DNA of 34,534 nucleotides from Desulfocapsa sulfexigens (lineage in GTDB: Bacteria; Desulfobacterota; Desulfobulbia; Desulfobulbales; Desulfocapsaceae). The translations under genes were made by a program, and so were the position numbers. Position 1 is the first letter of the stretch; the number at the start of each line of letters is the position of its first letter. A model generated the notes under the pieces. That model was not told the DNA's origin. It did not search any database and saw only the letters and a program-made list of their open reading frames with translations. Positions 1,324-31,240 of this stretch are shown here, piece by piece. The stretch covers positions 1-34,534 of the forward strand of contig DQTH01000231.1 of NCBI GenBank assembly GCA_015662865.1, in the 5' to 3' direction.

Positions 1324-1441
1324 AACAGGTTAATACCTTTTGCCTTCCTTCTAAAACTGCCTTCTCAACAAACATCATTTTTTCCAGTTAGTCAGTGCTT
1401 TTTCAATAATTCCTTTAAACTCTGCTATTCTTTGGTCATTT

Positions 1442-1472
1442 AGTTTTTAACTCTTATACAGAGTTAAAAACT
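1442..1472. terminator. Perfect 13-bp hairpin between convergent genes
   Basis: AGTTTTTAACTCT (1442-1454), loop TATAC, AGAGTTAAAAACT (1460-1472). It lies between the Cys-rich gene (+) and rlmKL (-), where a bidirectional terminator would be expected. No clean T-tract follows on either strand, so the terminator role is uncertain. Confidence 0.4.
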
Positions 1473-1512
1473 GGAGTGTACTTTTCCTTGCACAGGTATC
1501 CAGTATTGCCAT

Positions 1513-1601
1513 TTTACCTTGTGGGTCTTTGTAACATTTTGATTTAAAATTCAATCCACAAAATCTTGTTTTTTATTGCTGTTTATATCGAGTAAGGCAC
1601 T
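1513..1601 (-). repeat. Dispersed repeat family B, copy 1 (overlaps rlmKL 3' end)
   Basis: This 89-bp segment matches 27393-27484 between gyrB and gyrA. Shared runs include CCTTGTGGGT, GATTTAAA, GTTTTTTATT and GAGTAAGGCACTAA, in the same order and spacing. In the gyrB-gyrA copy the ends are inverted (AGTGCCTT...AAGGCACT); here the left end is degenerate (TACCTT). Bases 1551-1601 of this copy are read as the final codons of rlmKL. A MITE-like origin is inferred. Confidence 0.7.
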
Positions 1602-3743
1602 AATCTCCCAGCACTTATGAATTTTTTGGTTTCGTGCAAAATCCTGTGGAATGGAAGCCTTACTGATATCCTTGATGGAAAAACGGTCTCCAATGACTTC
1701 ATCCATTTTAAAGCGTCTGAAGTTTGTTGAAAACAGGAGCAGGCCATCCGGAGCCAGCCGCTTCATTGCAAGCTCCAGCAAACGGACATGATCACGCTGC
1801 ACATCAAAAACCCGTCTCTCCTTCTTGGTGTTGGAAAAAGTTGGCGGGTCAACAAAAATCAGGTCATATTCCGCCCTTGATTCCTGCAGCCATTTCATGC
1901 AATCCGCCTGAACTGTTTCATGGGCCAGTCCTCCAAAACCATTGAGGGCAAGATTCATTCTAGCCCAATTCAGGTAATTAAATGAAAGATCCACTGTAGT
2001 TGTGGATGCAGCTCCGCCCACTGCGGCATGGACTGTTGCGGCGCCAGTGTAGGCAAAGAGGTTCAAAAAACGCTTCCCTGATGCTTCTTTAGCGATCCTC
2101 TGGCGAATACTGCGATGATCAAGAAATATCCCGGTATCGAGATAATCGGTAAAATTCACCAGGAAAAAACAAGCTCCTTCCCGTACCACATGCATTTTTT
2201 TTCGACTGCCCTGTTTCTGGTACTGAGCCTTGCCTTTCTGTTTTCTCCTGGTCTTCAGAAATACCCTGTCTCTGCGCACTCCAAAGAGATGTCGAACCTG
2301 GTGCAGGCTCTGTTGAAAACGATATTGTGCCGATTTTTCGTCAACAGTTGATGGTGCCGCATATTCCTGAACATGAATCCATTTTTCATAGAGATCCACC
2401 GACACATTGTATTCAGGTAAATCCCTGTCATATACCCTAAAACATCGAATCCCTTCACGCCTGGCCCATTTGAGGAGCTTCTTAGAATTTTTTCGCAAGC
2501 GGTTGCCAAACTCTATTCCCTCATCAGGCCCTTTTTCAGAAGCCAGCTGCCACTGAAAATCCTGTTCTTCTTCAGGTGCTACCTCTCCGCAAAACAGTCG
2601 GCAATTAATGGGGCCGTTATACAGACGATGGCTCGCCTTCCACTTCATCCCCATGCGATCGCCAAATTCTGGATTGGAGGTAAAAATACCAAGATGCCAG
2701 CCGGGCAACTCCTTTCTGCAGATGCGTCCCAGGGCACGGTGCAGCTGTTCCGCCTCATCTTTTTCAGCAAGCCGCTCACCATATGGTGGATTGGTCACCA
2801 AGAGACCTTTAGCAGCAGGACGATGCAGATGGGCAAGCTGGTTCTGTTTCACCACAATCCGCTCATCAAGACCTGCATACTCAATATTGTTTCTGGCAAG
2901 AGCCACAGCGCGGGGATCAGCATCATAGCCAAGGATGAGAGGCCAGTCTTTCTCCATCCCTGCATTTTCCCGCTGCACAGCCTCATCCACCAATCGTGCC
3001 CAGAGAGCAGAATCGTGCTTCTCCCAGCCACTGAAACCAAAATACGTGCGGGACAAACCGGGAGCAACATCACCGTAGAGGAGTGCCCCTTCAATGAGCA
3101 GGGTTCCGGACCCGCACATGGGATCAAGGAGCATATAGTCTTGGGGAATTTCTGACTGCCAGCCGGCAAGAGCAACAATTGCTGCAGCAAGACTTTCCTT
3201 GAGCGGGGCAACACCTCCACCTTCTGTGCGGTATCCGCGCCGATGCAGACTTTCTCCGGAAAGATCCAGGGAAACCGTAGCCTGGTCCTTATGAATATAA
3301 AGCCTGATTCTCACATCCGGACGTTCAACTTCAACTCCGGGACGATCCCCGAATTTCTCACGGAACTGGTCCACAAGAGCATCTTTGACCCGAAGAGCCG
3401 CAAAACGACTATGGTTGATGGCAGAATGGCTGAGGCTGCAATCCACTGCAAAAGTAGTCTTCAGGGTCATATGCTCAGCCCAGTCTATCCTGAGCACTCC
3501 CTGATAAAGAGCTTCTTCATCAGGAGCTGGAAATTCAGCCAGAGACAGAAAAATCCGTGAGGAATACCTTGACCAGAGACAGGTTCGATAGGCAGATTCA
3601 AGATCACCCTGCCAGGTCACCAACCCTCTGGCACTTTTGATATCCTGCCCGCCAAAATTTTTAATTTCCTGGCTGACCAGAGTCTCGAGTCCTGCGGCAC
3701 AACTCGCTGTAAGGCTGTATAATTGTTTTGTAATTTCTGACAT
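1551..3743 (-). CDS. rlmKL: Bifunctional 23S rRNA methyltransferase RlmKL (m2G2445 / m7G2069)
   Basis: The 730-residue protein has the RlmKL fusion architecture: an N-terminal THUMP region, a first SAM methyltransferase domain with DPMCGSGT (207-214) and NPPYGERL (318-325), and a second domain with FLNLFAYTG (about 559-567) and VDPPTF near 632. It makes two base modifications in domain V of 23S rRNA. The E. coli protein has about 700 residues, so this one is slightly long. Where family members stop soon after the CWxI segment, this protein carries on with SALLDINSNKKQDFVD. Those codons and the TGA stop lie inside repeat family B, so the tail appears repeat-derived. The gene is transcribed alone, convergent with the upstream pair. 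Confidence 0.95.
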   Translation of the reverse strand: MSEITKQLYSLTASCAAGLETLVSQEIKNFGGQDIKSARGLVTWQGDLESAYRTCLWSRYSSRIFLSLAEFPAPDEEALYQGVLRIDWAEHMTLKTTFAVDCSLSHSAINHSRFAALRVKDALVDQFREKFGDRPGVEVERPDVRIRLYIHKDQATVSLDLSGESLHRRGYRTEGGGVAPLKESLAAAIVALAGWQSEIPQDYMLLDPMCGSGTLLIEGALLYGDVAPGLSRTYFGFSGWEKHDSALWARLVDEAVQRENAGMEKDWPLILGYDADPRAVALARNNIEYAGLDERIVVKQNQLAHLHRPAAKGLLVTNPPYGERLAEKDEAEQLHRALGRICRKELPGWHLGIFTSNPEFGDRMGMKWKASHRLYNGPINCRLFCGEVAPEEEQDFQWQLASEKGPDEGIEFGNRLRKNSKKLLKWARREGIRCFRVYDRDLPEYNVSVDLYEKWIHVQEYAAPSTVDEKSAQYRFQQSLHQVRHLFGVRRDRVFLKTRRKQKGKAQYQKQGSRKKMHVVREGACFFLVNFTDYLDTGIFLDHRSIRQRIAKEASGKRFLNLFAYTGAATVHAAVGGAASTTTVDLSFNYLNWARMNLALNGFGGLAHETVQADCMKWLQESRAEYDLIFVDPPTFSNTKKERRVFDVQRDHVRLLELAMKRLAPDGLLLFSTNFRRFKMDEVIGDRFSIKDISKASIPQDFARNQKIHKCWEISALLDINSNKKQDFVD

Positions 3744-3863: not shown

Positions 3864-3980
3864 ACATGTAAATGGTCACAGGTGGTGCAGGTTTGCCTTC
3901 TGATTTCCATCCGCAATAGCCTAACCTATGCGGATGGAAATCAGAAGGTGAAAATGCAGTGCCTGTGGCCATTTACATGT
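3864..3980. repeat. 117-nt imperfect hairpin directly after the RND permease stop
   Basis: Two 52-nt arms (3864-3915 and 3929-3980) are inverted copies with 8 mismatches by eye, around a 13-nt loop. Outer arms are ACATGTAAATGG / CCATTTACATGT; the inner 20 bp or so (CCTTCTGATTTCCATCCGCA) pair perfectly. The right arm ends on the first base of the permease stop codon. There is no T-tract after it on the minus strand, so it is not a standard rho-independent terminator. It may be an mRNA 3'-end stabiliser or a mobile palindromic repeat. No second copy was found in this window. Confidence 0.75.
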
Positions 3981-6900
3981 TATTTTTTCAGCATGTAATA
4001 TAGAACCGGCACCGCCATACGACTGACAAGAAGCGATGCTATCTCGCCAAACATCAGTGACAGTGCAAGGCCCTGGAAGATAGGATCAGCAAGGATCACA
4101 GAGGCACCAACCACAACAGCCAGAGCAGTGAGAAGCATGGGGCGGAAACGTACAGCACCGGCTTCCACCACAGCCTCTTTCAAAGGCAGGCCATGGCTGA
4201 TGCGCAGCTCGATAAAATCCACAAGAATAATGGAATTTCGAACCACGATTCCAGCTCCTGCCATGAAACCGATCATGGAAGTGGCTGTGAAAAATGCACC
4301 AAAACCCCAGTGGGCAGGCAGGATACCAATGAGTGAAAAGGGAATGGCTGCCATGACCACAAGGGGAGTGAAATAATCTTTAAACCATCCCACCATAAGC
4401 ATGTAGATAAGGATCATTACAACACAGAAGGCCAGTCCAAGGTCGCGAAAGACTTCCAGTGTAATGTGCCATTCACCGTCCCACTTCATGGCAGGCTCTG
4501 CGTTTGTGAAGGGTTGATTTAAATTGTAGAGTTTGACATTGTCACCACTGCCGCCAAAATCTGCGGGTTTCAGCTTAGCCAGTTTTTCATTCATGTCAAA
4601 TATTGCATAGACCGGACTTTCCACAGTTCCTGCAACATCTCCGGTGACATAGATGACAGGTTTTAAATTTTTGTGATAGATCGGCTGCTCAACCGGCACC
4701 TCTTCCACCTTCACCAGTTCTCGCAGGGGAACAAGCGGTGCCTGTGGATTCATGGCGGAACGCATTCCGATATTCATTAATGCTTCAGTTGAAGTCCGCA
4801 TGGAACGCGGCATTTCAAGGATGATGTTAATCGCTTCCTTATCACGAGGCTGGTGAAAGAGATCTATTGGTACTCCCTTCATCCCCATGCGTACGGTGCG
4901 GGTGATCTCTCCCTCGGAGATATGATTCAGCGCTGCTTTTTCTTTATCAACCGTGAGTACAAGGCGACTGCGTTTTGCTTCACGGTACCAGTCTACATCC
5001 ACAACTCCCTCAGTGGATTCAAAGATATCCTTCACAGCTCCTGCCAGGTTCACCCGATCATTCTCACTGGGACCATAGATTTCAGCAACCAGAGTCTGGA
5101 GCACAGGAGGGCCTGGCGGTACTTCAGCTACTGCAACCACAGCACCATATTTTTTTGCAATTTCTGCAATGGCCGGACGAACACGCACAGCAATATCGTG
5201 GCTCTGCAGAGAACGCTCCTGCTTGGGAAGCAGATTAACCTGGATATCAGCAACTGTCGGCCCCTGACGCATGAAGTAATGCCTGACCAGTCCATTAAAA
5301 TTATAGGGAGATGCAACACCGGCATAGATCTGATAATTTACCACAGTCGGATCAGCCTTTATTACCTCTGCCATCTCGAGCGCTACCCTGCTTGTCTGTT
5401 CAAGTGTCGAGCCTTCAGGCATATCAAGAATAACCTGAAATTCACTTTTATTGTCAAAGGGCAGCATCTTCACCTTGACCAGCCCGAAATACACCATGGA
5501 ACAGGTGGCAAGGAGCAGGCTGACGGTGACCAGAAAAAAACCAAAACGTGCAAAGCCGTTGCCCAGAAGCGGTTCCATAACCCGATGATACACACGGGTG
5601 AAAAAATCATCCGGTGCATGATCCTCATCCGCGTCTTCTTCAGTATGTTCAGTCTTTGCTGCACCCTTCTTGGCCAACATCTTCACCGAAGCCCAGGGGG
5701 TCACGGTAAAGGCGATAATTACTGAAAAAATCATTGCCGCTGAGGCGCCGATTGGAATGGGACGCATATAGGGCCCCATCAGTCCGCCAACAAAGGCCAT
5801 GGGCAGGATGGCAGCAATTACAGCCAGAGTTGCAAGAATTGTCGGGTTGCCTACCTCGATCACCGCTTCCACGGCAATTGTCAGCATCGACTTTTCCCCG
5901 CTGCCGGGTAGACGCATGTGGCGTACAATATTCTCAACAACCACTATGGCATCATCCACCAGAATACCTATGGAAAAAATGAGAGCAAAGAGGGTGATGC
6001 GGTTAAGTGTATATCCATAGAGATAAAAAATCATCAACGTAAGAGCAAGTGTGGAGGGAATGGCCAGCATGACCACGGTGGACTCACGCCACCCGAGGAA
6101 AAAGAGAATAAGGGTAGCCACACCAAAAACCGCAATTCCCATGTGAAAGAGCAGCTCGTTGGATTTTTCCGCTGCGGTTTCCCCATAGTCACGGGTCACT
6201 GTGACAGAGAGATCAGCGGGTATCAGGGTGCCTTTCAGCTCTTCCACCTTGGCCAGTACTTCATGAACCACACTCACCGCATTGGAGCTGGGTCGTTTGG
6301 CAATGGACAGGGTAACGGCAGCCTCTTCACCATGACCATCAGCGGTCCCGAACAGGACATAATTATTGGGCTCTTCCGGTCCGTCAATGATGGTTGCAAC
6401 TTCATCAAGGTACACCGGGCTACCGCCAAAGACGCCAACCACAACACGACCTATCTCTTCCTTATTTTTCAGAAATGTTCCGGTCTGGAGAAGGATTTCC
6501 TCATTCAGGACTTCAACCTTGCCACAGAATATCTGCCGGTTTGCCTGCTGCAGGGCCGGGACAAGCTGTGTCACGGTGAGATTTCTGGAGGCCAGAAGCA
6601 GAGGATCAAACTGGATACGGACCTGCCTTCTGGTTCCTCCAATCAAAGTGGTTTCAGCCACATTGTGGATACTCTTTACGGCATCATCTACTTCTGCCGC
6701 CAGCCTGCGCAGGGTATAATGATCATAATTTTTGGAATGAAAAGTGAGGGCCAGAATGGGGACATCATCAATAATATGCGGTTTGACAAGAGGGGGGGAA
6801 ACAGTCTGGGGCATGCGGTCAAGATTAGTCGCCAGTTTCTGGTTCAGCCTGACAATGGATGTTTCCAGGTTCTCTCCTACGTAAAATCGCACAACAAGAA

Positions 6901-7201
6901 GGCTCTGTCCGGACATGGATGTGGAATAGATATACTCAACCCCTGGAATCTCATAGAGCAGTTTTTCCATGGGAATTGTAATCTGCTCCTCCACCTCTTT
7001 GGGAGTGGCACCGGGCATGGATACCATGACATCAATCATGGGTACCTTGATCTGTGGCTCTTCCTCACGGGGCAGCATGACAATTGCCATGATCCCGAGA
7101 AGCATCGAAGCAATAATTCCAACCGCTGTCAGTTTGGAATCAACAAAAACTGCCGCCATTTTTCCGGCAAAACCCGGATGTTCAAATTCCTGCTTATTCA
7201 T
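3980..7201 (-). CDS. RND efflux transporter permease subunit (HAE-1-like)
   Basis: The 1073-residue inner-membrane pump has the RND layout: TM1 near the N-terminus, a large periplasmic loop, a TM block with the proton-relay pair in [13 protein letters not shown] (Asp416, Asp417), a second periplasmic loop and a final TM block. It should exchange protons for drugs or other amphiphiles and pass them to the adaptor and TolC-like channel encoded upstream. At the position of the conserved TM10 Lys (K940 in AcrB) it has Arg988 (VVRNSI). A His/Asp/Glu-rich linker ([16 protein letters not shown]) precedes the second half. Its start overlaps the adaptor stop by 8 bp. Substrate unknown. Confidence 0.93.
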
Positions 7202-18761: not shown

Positions 18762-18793
18762 GCATATATTTGATATTCCGAGGATAAAATTTT
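18762..18793 (+). repeat. 32-bp element shared with the dnaN-gyrB gap (family C)
   Basis: GCATATA, four differing bases, then ATATTCCGAGGATAAAATTTT; identical outside those four positions to 24801-24832. At this site the surrounding inverted arms seen at 24735-24883 are not evident, so this may be a fragment. Confidence 0.65.
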
Positions 18794-24734: not shown

Positions 24735-24883
24735 TATAGGGTGCCTTGAATAATTAGGATTTTCGCTCAAAATCGAGGCATACAAAAATTTTTAACACAG
24801 GCATATACATAATATTCCGAGGATAAAATTTTGAGCATAACGAAGAGATTGAGCGAAAAGACGATTTTTCAAGGTAGCCTATA
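24735..24883. repeat. 149-bp inverted-repeat element between dnaN and gyrB (family C)
   Basis: Left arm 24735-24770 begins TATAGGGTGCCTTGAA and ends TTTTCGCTCAA. Right arm 24849-24883 is its imperfect inverse (TTGAGCGAAAA ... CCTATA). The 78 bp between contain a second inner pair (GCTCAAAAT / ATTTTGAGC) and the 32-bp segment shared with 18762-18793. MITE-like or structured intergenic element; no coding potential. Confidence 0.7.
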
Positions 24884-24898
24884 AAATTAGTTATTTAA

Positions 24899-27373
<2,475 letters not shown>

Positions 27374-27392
27374 CCCTCCACAAGGGGGTATA

Positions 27393-27484
27393 AGTGCCTT
27401 GTGGGTGTTTGTAGCTTTCAGATTTAAATATAATTCCATAATAAAGGATCGTTTTTTATTACTTCTTATATGGAGTAAGGCACT
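27393..27484. repeat. Dispersed repeat family B, copy 2 (gyrB-gyrA gap)
   Basis: A 92-bp element bounded by inverted ends AGTGCCTT (27393) and AAGGCACT (27484), the middle partly self-complementary. It matches 1513-1601 over nearly its whole length. It fills half of the 186-bp gyrB-gyrA gap and has no coding potential. Confidence 0.75.
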
Positions 27485-27559
27485 AAATATTTTACGATTC
27501 TCTTTTTCATATTTTATAGATATTTGAAATAAAAAACCTATACCGGAAAAACATTTCAT

Positions 27560-31072: not shown

Positions 31073-31240
31073 CAAAATTGATGGATTAGTATAAACTCTC
31101 CATCTTCTTCGTTGCTGCAAAAATCATATCATTTCGGCGTATCCCTAGTACGCCGAAATGATATGGTTTTTGCGCGCCTCGAATATGGAGTTTTTCGAAG
31201 TCTACGCTTATCTACAAATCCATCTTAGATTTCAATTTTT
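31073..31240. repeat. Intact palindromic repeat family A (about 168 bp)
   Basis: The core is a hairpin with 25-nt arms and one mismatch: 31117-31141 and 31149-31173, around loop TCCCTAG. The inner 17 bp (CATATCATTTCGGCGTA) pair perfectly. Weaker outer pairing continues to the ends (TTGATGGATT near 31079; AATCCATC...TTTCAA near 31215-31236). The left half matches the interrupted copy at 91-157. It lies between gpsA and the permease gene and may also act as a transcription barrier, though it has no T-run. Confidence 0.8.

Follow-up and report, generated by a model that had tools for sequence, protein, structure and literature searches.

A short dispersed repeat supplies the C-terminus of RlmKL in Desulfocapsa sulfexigens and in many other copies lies at gene ends

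Introduction

In Desulfocapsa sulfexigens, the gene rlmKL runs into a repeated sequence at its 3' end, which raises the question of how the encoded rRNA methyltransferase came by its C-terminus and what kind of repeat supplied it. The original prediction, made on the 34,534-nt stretch of DNA analysed here (contig DQTH01000231.1 of assembly GCA_015662865.1, hereafter the window), placed the last 16 codons and the TGA stop of rlmKL inside a dispersed repeat with one other copy, between gyrB and gyrA, and proposed that the repeat had been inserted at the gene end and captured as coding sequence. The features concerned are the following:

1551–3743, minus strand: rlmKL, bifunctional 23S rRNA methyltransferase RlmK/RlmL (NF008748, 963.8 bits, match ending at residue 715)
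1551–1601, minus strand: the 16 captured codons SALLDINSNKKQDFVD and the TGA stop of RlmKL, wholly within the repeat
1602–1604, minus strand: Ile codon of CWEI across the insertion junction (A from the flank, TT from the right end of the repeat)
1517–1603, plus strand: repeat core and right half (about 40 own-genome places; boundary alignments; sharp right end at ...GAGTAAGGCACTAA)
1487–1603, plus strand: full extent of the rlmKL copy (covariance model, 82 bits, model positions 1–114)
24959–27373, plus strand: gyrB, its C-terminus unaltered by the insertion (orthologue comparison)
27370–27373, plus strand: target tetranucleotide CTGA, made of the last base of an Ile codon and the gyrB stop TGA
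27374–27486, plus strand: second copy of the repeat in the window, intergenic between gyrB and gyrA, directly 3' of the gyrB stop

Results

The tail of RlmKL begins at the right end of the repeat

The RlmKL ORF (730 aa) ends in ...HKCWEISALLDINSNKKQDFVD before its stop, a C-terminus also read as ...IHKCWEISALLDINSNKKQDFVD, and its last 16 codons with the TGA do lie wholly within the repeat core at 1517–1603. The right end of the repeat is at 1603, so that the Ile codon ahead of the tail takes two repeat bases; on the minus strand the junction reads GAG A/TT AGT GCC (the slash marking the repeat boundary), with the cut exactly at the repeat's right end. This boundary is also the point where RlmKL departs from its orthologues, GAG A/TTAGTGCC corresponding to CWE-I/SAL, and the peptide that leads from the protein's own part into the tail reads ...CWEISALLDINSNK...

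The expectation that RlmKL homologues end soon after the CWxI segment was borne out. Readable orthologues of the genus stopped about 2–10 residues after CWEI, with ends such as CWEIRKK, CWEIRRR, CWEIRRK and similar, the longest being CWEIRRKQETGKQR, and the E. coli protein (3V97) ends in CWLITA(A), that is, a few residues past CWxI. When the C-termini were compared, the test on which the prediction had been staked, the tail SALLDINSNKKQDFVD was absent from all readable orthologues, in the genus and beyond. Since orthologues end 2–9 residues after CWEI, the tail is best read as capture by insertion, and the intact ORF suggests that it would be translated.

Because the left hairpin half has degenerated in the rlmKL copy, the target of this copy is not directly readable, and the covariance model places its far end only approximately, at ~1487. 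The closest RlmKL orthologue is 79% identical, and the exact pre-insertion sequence is thus inferred: the ancestral site would have been GAG ATT AGR (Glu-Ile-Arg), holding TTAG, which is CTAA on the other strand, and the empty site would read GAGATTAG(A/G)... At this position, G013 has the codons GAGATTCGG and G019 has GAAATAAGG, and no orthologue has both ATT and AGR.

The converse reading, in which the tail is ancestral and its likeness to the repeat is coincidental, or the repeat was copied from rlmKL, could appeal to the fact that the rlmKL copy is among those with a 53-nt reading frame. It is hardly credible, however, given that every readable orthologue is without the tail, that some 40–66 intergenic copies exist elsewhere in the genome, and that copies lie at unrelated loci across the genus.

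The repeat family is spread across the genus

In the own genome, a BLAST search with window positions 1440–1612 as query returned about 40 places that match from query position 78 (window position 1517), many of these core matches (1517–1603) at 85–93% identity and with E values down to 1e-32. The repeat is dispersed and about 114 nt long, and a covariance model based on 24 copies found 66 in the same genome. The copy between gyrB and gyrA was present in the non-coding spacer as proposed, directly 3' of the gyrB TGA (similarity match 27397–27486; with its full extent in the covariance model, 27370–27486); the two-copy picture, by contrast, gave way to one of dozens.

Among relatives, the covariance model counted at least 148 copies in G015, 54 in G005, 46 in G010, and 24 in G003, and six of the 19 genomes searched were near zero, with one copy each in G006, G011, and G018 and none in G002, G007, and G008. 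The repeat is spread across the genus, with up to about 150 copies per genome. When GTDB contigs were scanned for the repeat pattern, 114 stretches came up, and the loci listed belong by title nearly all to Desulfocapsa, Desulfobulbaceae, Desulfocapsaceae, or unplaced Deltaproteobacteria MAGs; among the few exceptions is one with a Sulfurovum label, perhaps a mis-binned contig. Rfam gave no match at gathering thresholds. Judged by title, the literature searched on Desulfocapsa repeats held nothing relevant, so that neither the family nor its stop-restoring end seems to have been described there.

Ends, target, and structure of the element

On its left, the element starts just 3' of a CTAA-like tetranucleotide and opens with a hairpin, and on its right it ends sharply at ...GGAGTAAGGCACTAA. 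The two ends, CTAA/C-hairpin... and ...AAGGCACTAA, are not inverted repeats, and the aligned copies showed neither terminal inverted repeats at the extreme ends nor target duplication. The left tetranucleotide, read in about 31 own copies, is CTAA in 16, CTAG in four, CTGA in two, and others including TTAA in the rest, whereas the right one is encoded by the element and is CTAA in 34 of 37. As the left varies while the right is CTAA, the two form no target duplication. The same follows at gyrB, where the empty site of G008 reads CTGA, as in the own genome, and the right end of the element is CTAA.

These ends bear on whether the repeat is a classical MITE, that is, an IS5-like element with inverted-repeat ends, moved by the cut-and-paste action of a DDE transposase and generating a 4-bp CTAA/YTAR duplication. 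Such an origin would suit a short, non-coding, dispersed sequence with CTAA at both ends of many copies, but we hold it to be highly improbable, as the extreme ends lack a terminal inverted repeat and many copies pair a left CTGA, CTAG, or TTAA with a right CTAA, including the gyrB copy with its empty CTGA in a relative. The IS5-type YTAR duplication was rejected on these unequal tetranucleotides, and integron attC sites were rejected by inspection, the ends being direct rather than inverted.

The left hairpin varies between subfamilies and keeps its self-complementarity (CCCCACAAGGGG, GCAGATAAACTGC, CCGACAAGTCGG, ACCGGTGATGAACGGT), its arms changing in step (CCCC..GGGG, GCAG..CTGC, CCGA..TCGG). 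A right hairpin is predicted for the own-genome consensus (z −3.3), and the predicted folds of some other subfamilies are no better than those of shuffled sequences. The left AGTGCCTT and the right AAGGCACT can pair (AGTRCC with GGYACT), and one pair between the ends covaries (G-C 71, A-T 16, A-C 7, G-T 1; Fisher p 7e-12, uncorrected for relatedness). Tandem copies with a single common CTAA at their junction were found at L053, L054, and L089, the arrangement that would result if one copy had used the right end of another as its target.

Extra hairpin modules occupy two fixed positions inside L051, L052, L054, L142, L189, and further copies, namely TCGAAGGTCTCTCTTCGTTCGCTA after AAGTGCC and CGGAGTCTACGCTTACC before TGTTTTTTATT. 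In addition, a second small repeat with inverted ends TTACGTATGAAACTCAGCCA and TGGCTGAGTTTTGTACGTAA is nested in the element at L042, L046, and L048, and was apparently struck in turn by a third repeat (GGTGTCATCCCCGC...GCGGGAATGAC). Longer autonomous versions did not emerge among the copies with odd left halves: L042, L046, and L048 are the copies with this nested repeat, and L146 and L150 are the same insertion in two species.

Many copies at gene boundaries would leave proteins intact

CTAA contains TAA, and its reverse complement TTAG contains TAG. Genes of the own genome were called with a model of codon usage derived from 386 kb of its sequence, and the search for further copies at gene ends that had been suggested proved productive: 9 of the 35 own copies provide, in the TAG of their TTAG end, the exact stop of a converging gene, and in four the element begins exactly after an upstream stop codon (gyrB, L016 with a MutS-like C-terminus, L007, and L041). 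The TAG-restored genes include those for carbamate kinase, an HtrA-type protease, a lytic transglycosylase, a sodium-pump decarboxylase beta subunit, and a PPDK-type protein, and a stop is restored at TTAG in 12 copies from other genomes too. The last A of the element joins a genomic TG to form the ATG of the next gene in at least two copies (L012 and L043, the latter thrS-like), and probably also in L002 and L029, with AAGG five bases upstream of the element-derived starts. No own copy (0 of 35) is interior to a gene, compared with 60% of CTAA sites.

In the relatives compared, the gyrB protein ends in EVSELDI or a near variant with or without the element. The PPDK-type protein of the own genome ends in EEMHILPI by use of the element's TAG, the protein stops at that residue in all readable relatives too, and an empty TTAG is seen at this gene in G003. 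RlmKL is the out-of-frame exception.

Stop-restoring junctions were more frequent in the own genome than at non-genic CTAA sites taken from its 386 kb (9/35 against 22/330, p = 0.001); in the wider set from other genomes there was no enrichment against this same background, which represents the own genome only (12/123, p = 0.3). A CTAA target, together with purifying selection against insertions that disrupt genes, accounts for most of the gene-end pattern, and a true preference of the element for stop codons is possible. It is conceivable, although we consider it doubtful, that the termini are shaped for gene boundaries, with stops on both strands in CTAA, an ATG formed with TG, and a well-spaced Shine–Dalgarno-like AAGG, so that the element would spread at stops and starts without changing proteins and would add tails only when the frame is missed.

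Alternatively, the position at stop codons could reflect a regulatory role, as a selected 3'-UTR hairpin or terminator, rather than insertion chemistry combined with purifying selection. The over-representation of stop-adjacent copies in the own genome and the left-end hairpin of every subfamily would agree with this, yet Rfam has no match, loci including those of gyrB and the PPDK-type gene are empty in relatives, and the copies checked are lineage-specific; we therefore regard such a role as quite unlikely.

Reading frames through the element and other C-terminal captures

A gene that reads into the element at its right end has three possible frames, which we followed in 163 copies. The frame T/TAG stops immediately in all 163, the frame TTA GTG stops at variable distances, and the frame TT/AGT stays open for at least 10 codons in 153. 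RlmKL is read in this third frame as far as a TGA (GGATTGAAT) common to several copies of its subfamily; the L002 copy, read in the same frame, gives RALLHINSNIKQDFVD followed by a stop, so that neither frame nor stop is unique to the rlmKL copy. As the frame is open in most copies and the TGA is common to copies of the subfamily, the tail is what its subfamily yields in that frame, and no later adaptation. Peptide-level selection on the captured frame was sought in the entropy by codon position (0.54, 0.64, and 0.67), which gave no clear third-position excess. The L002 ORF with this tail was dropped, a ferredoxin-type gene on the opposite strand being likely the real one.

Captures were confined to C-termini and affected rlmKL, folK, a SpoU-type methylase (L138), and a NUDIX protein (L170). 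The last two, from related genomes, read into the left end of the element, and an unassigned ORF (L141) has the same tail as L170, NPNKSEF. The own folK (NCBIfam folK) ends in ...NTWPDTS, while most relatives end in ...W-x, which suggests a one-base deletion beside a CTGA target, through which the gene would run three codons into the element's left end.

Candidates for the mobilising enzyme

The own genome contains two IS200-type Y1 ORFs, one of them truncated, and one TGA-interrupted RAYT-type ORF. None of the 31 Y1 loci of the genus carries the ends of the element, except for the RAYT at L124, which lies inside duplicates, and TnpB was absent from the genus above the cut-off. The IS200 elements L105 and L106 were rejected as mobilisers, their ends being different.

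REP elements are short, hairpin-bearing, extragenic sequences, often near stop codons, for which a Y1 transposase is suspected, and the present element resembles them in all of these traits of form and position; unlike REP/RAYT systems, it has no demonstrated GTAG-footed REP hairpin pairs, and the RAYTs found have other ends. Mobilisation by a RAYT (REP-associated tyrosine transposase) of the genus could be argued from the G015 RAYT at L124, which has a copy of the repeat on each side, and from the RAYT reading frame of the own genome (L107). However, the RAYT has its own ends, GGGGTCAAGTCCGCTTTTGAC, internal to the repeats; the two flanking copies belong to larger direct duplicates of about 190 nt; the own-genome RAYT has an in-frame TGA; and G008, G011, and G018, genomes with 0–1 copies, have RAYT-type ORFs as well. 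This source of mobility thus seems unlikely. The L107 ORF (567–1566) is split by TGA where its G015 homologue L124 has a Cys codon, and both RAYTs are flanked by GGGGTCAAGTCCGCTTTTGAC ends.

Other repeats in the window

Another dispersed repeat, AACGAAGAAGATGAAGAGTTTTTACGA..CCATCA with a ...ACGCCGAAATGATATGG hairpin, lies at 101–157 and 31079–31225; it occurs at several more places in the 386 kb own-genome sample and adjoins the present element in G015 (L057, L163). At 3864–3980, between rlmKL and the minus-strand gene at 3980–7201, inverted-repeat arms of 52 nt are 85% complementary, one of them touching the stop codon of that gene, and no second copy was found in 386 kb of genome. A motif of about 30 nt, GCATATATTTGATATTCCGAGGATAAAATTTT, appears at 18762–18793, at 24801–24832, and at L259:13127–13155, about 90% alike. 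Finally, a near-perfect palindrome at 1442–1472 (AGTTTTTAACTC..GAGTTAAAAACT), single-copy in the sample, lies between converging genes and is possibly a bidirectional terminator.

Discussion

The repeat at the 3' end of rlmKL is very probably a non-autonomous mobile element of about 114 nt, inserted 3' of a CTAA-like tetranucleotide without duplication and with its own CTAA at the right end, in the manner of IS200/IS605. Under this model, the element would land beside its target and bring its own CTAA, as single-strand transposition of the IS200/IS605 type would give. In rlmKL, the target would have been the TTAG within the codons ATT-AGR (Ile-Arg) of CWEI-R-K-K; the insert would have pushed away about three C-terminal codons, and the gene would then have been read on in the open frame of the element (TT AGT GCC...), stopping at its TGA after 16 residues. 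Elsewhere, the CTAA end would be mostly harmless: its opposite-strand TTAG would give a TAG stop to a converging gene, an upstream gene ending in CTAA, CTGA, or CTAG at the left of the element would keep its stop, and CTAA followed by TG would provide an ATG start. Insertion at the gene end with capture as coding sequence, as originally proposed, agrees with the repeat boundary being the point of divergence and with orthologues devoid of the tail.

The palindrome-associated transposable elements (PATEs) of Haloquadratum walsbyi, which have near-terminal palindromes, derive from IS200/IS605 elements (PMC3119063). The present element has a hairpin at its left end and a predicted one at the right of the own-genome consensus. 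Like PATEs, it has no terminal inverted repeats, causes no target duplication, is too short for a transposase, and exists as many divergent copies with nested elements (PMC3119063). Unlike PATEs (PMC3119063), it is bacterial, no IS605-type transposon with its ends was found, its right end encodes CTAA, the preferred target, and it forms stop-codon junctions. With no Y1 ORF of the own genome bearing matching ends and TnpB absent from the genus above the cut-off, the element is a putative member of the IS200/IS605-derived PATEs, and appears to work like one.

C-terminal capture by small repeats is an already known type of event, from Rickettsia RPEs and Coxiella QMITE2/EnhC. In Coxiella Dugway, 33 C-terminal residues of EnhC are supplied by QMITE2 (PMC5896051), and QMITE1 and QMITE2 are, like the present element, small dispersed repeats over gene 3' ends, one of which supplies a C-terminus (PMC5896051). 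QMITEs are described as MITEs, with inverted repeats (PMC5896051), whereas the present element is without terminal inverted repeats and the logic of its junctions can be seen in the TAA/TAG of the target. Rickettsia palindromic elements are translated within unrelated host proteins (review, PMC10969869), and here too a repeat would be translated as a piece of an unrelated host protein; RPEs, however, often lie in frame within genes and encode a conserved peptide (PMC10969869), whereas none of the 35 own copies of the present element lies within a gene and only C-termini were captured.

In this context, RlmKL offers a traceable case of a new C-terminus from mobile DNA, with a right junction resolved to the base and insert-free orthologues for comparison. 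With a stop codon on either strand of its target, a mobile element can settle at gene ends while proteins remain intact, which may explain how most such insertions go unnoticed.
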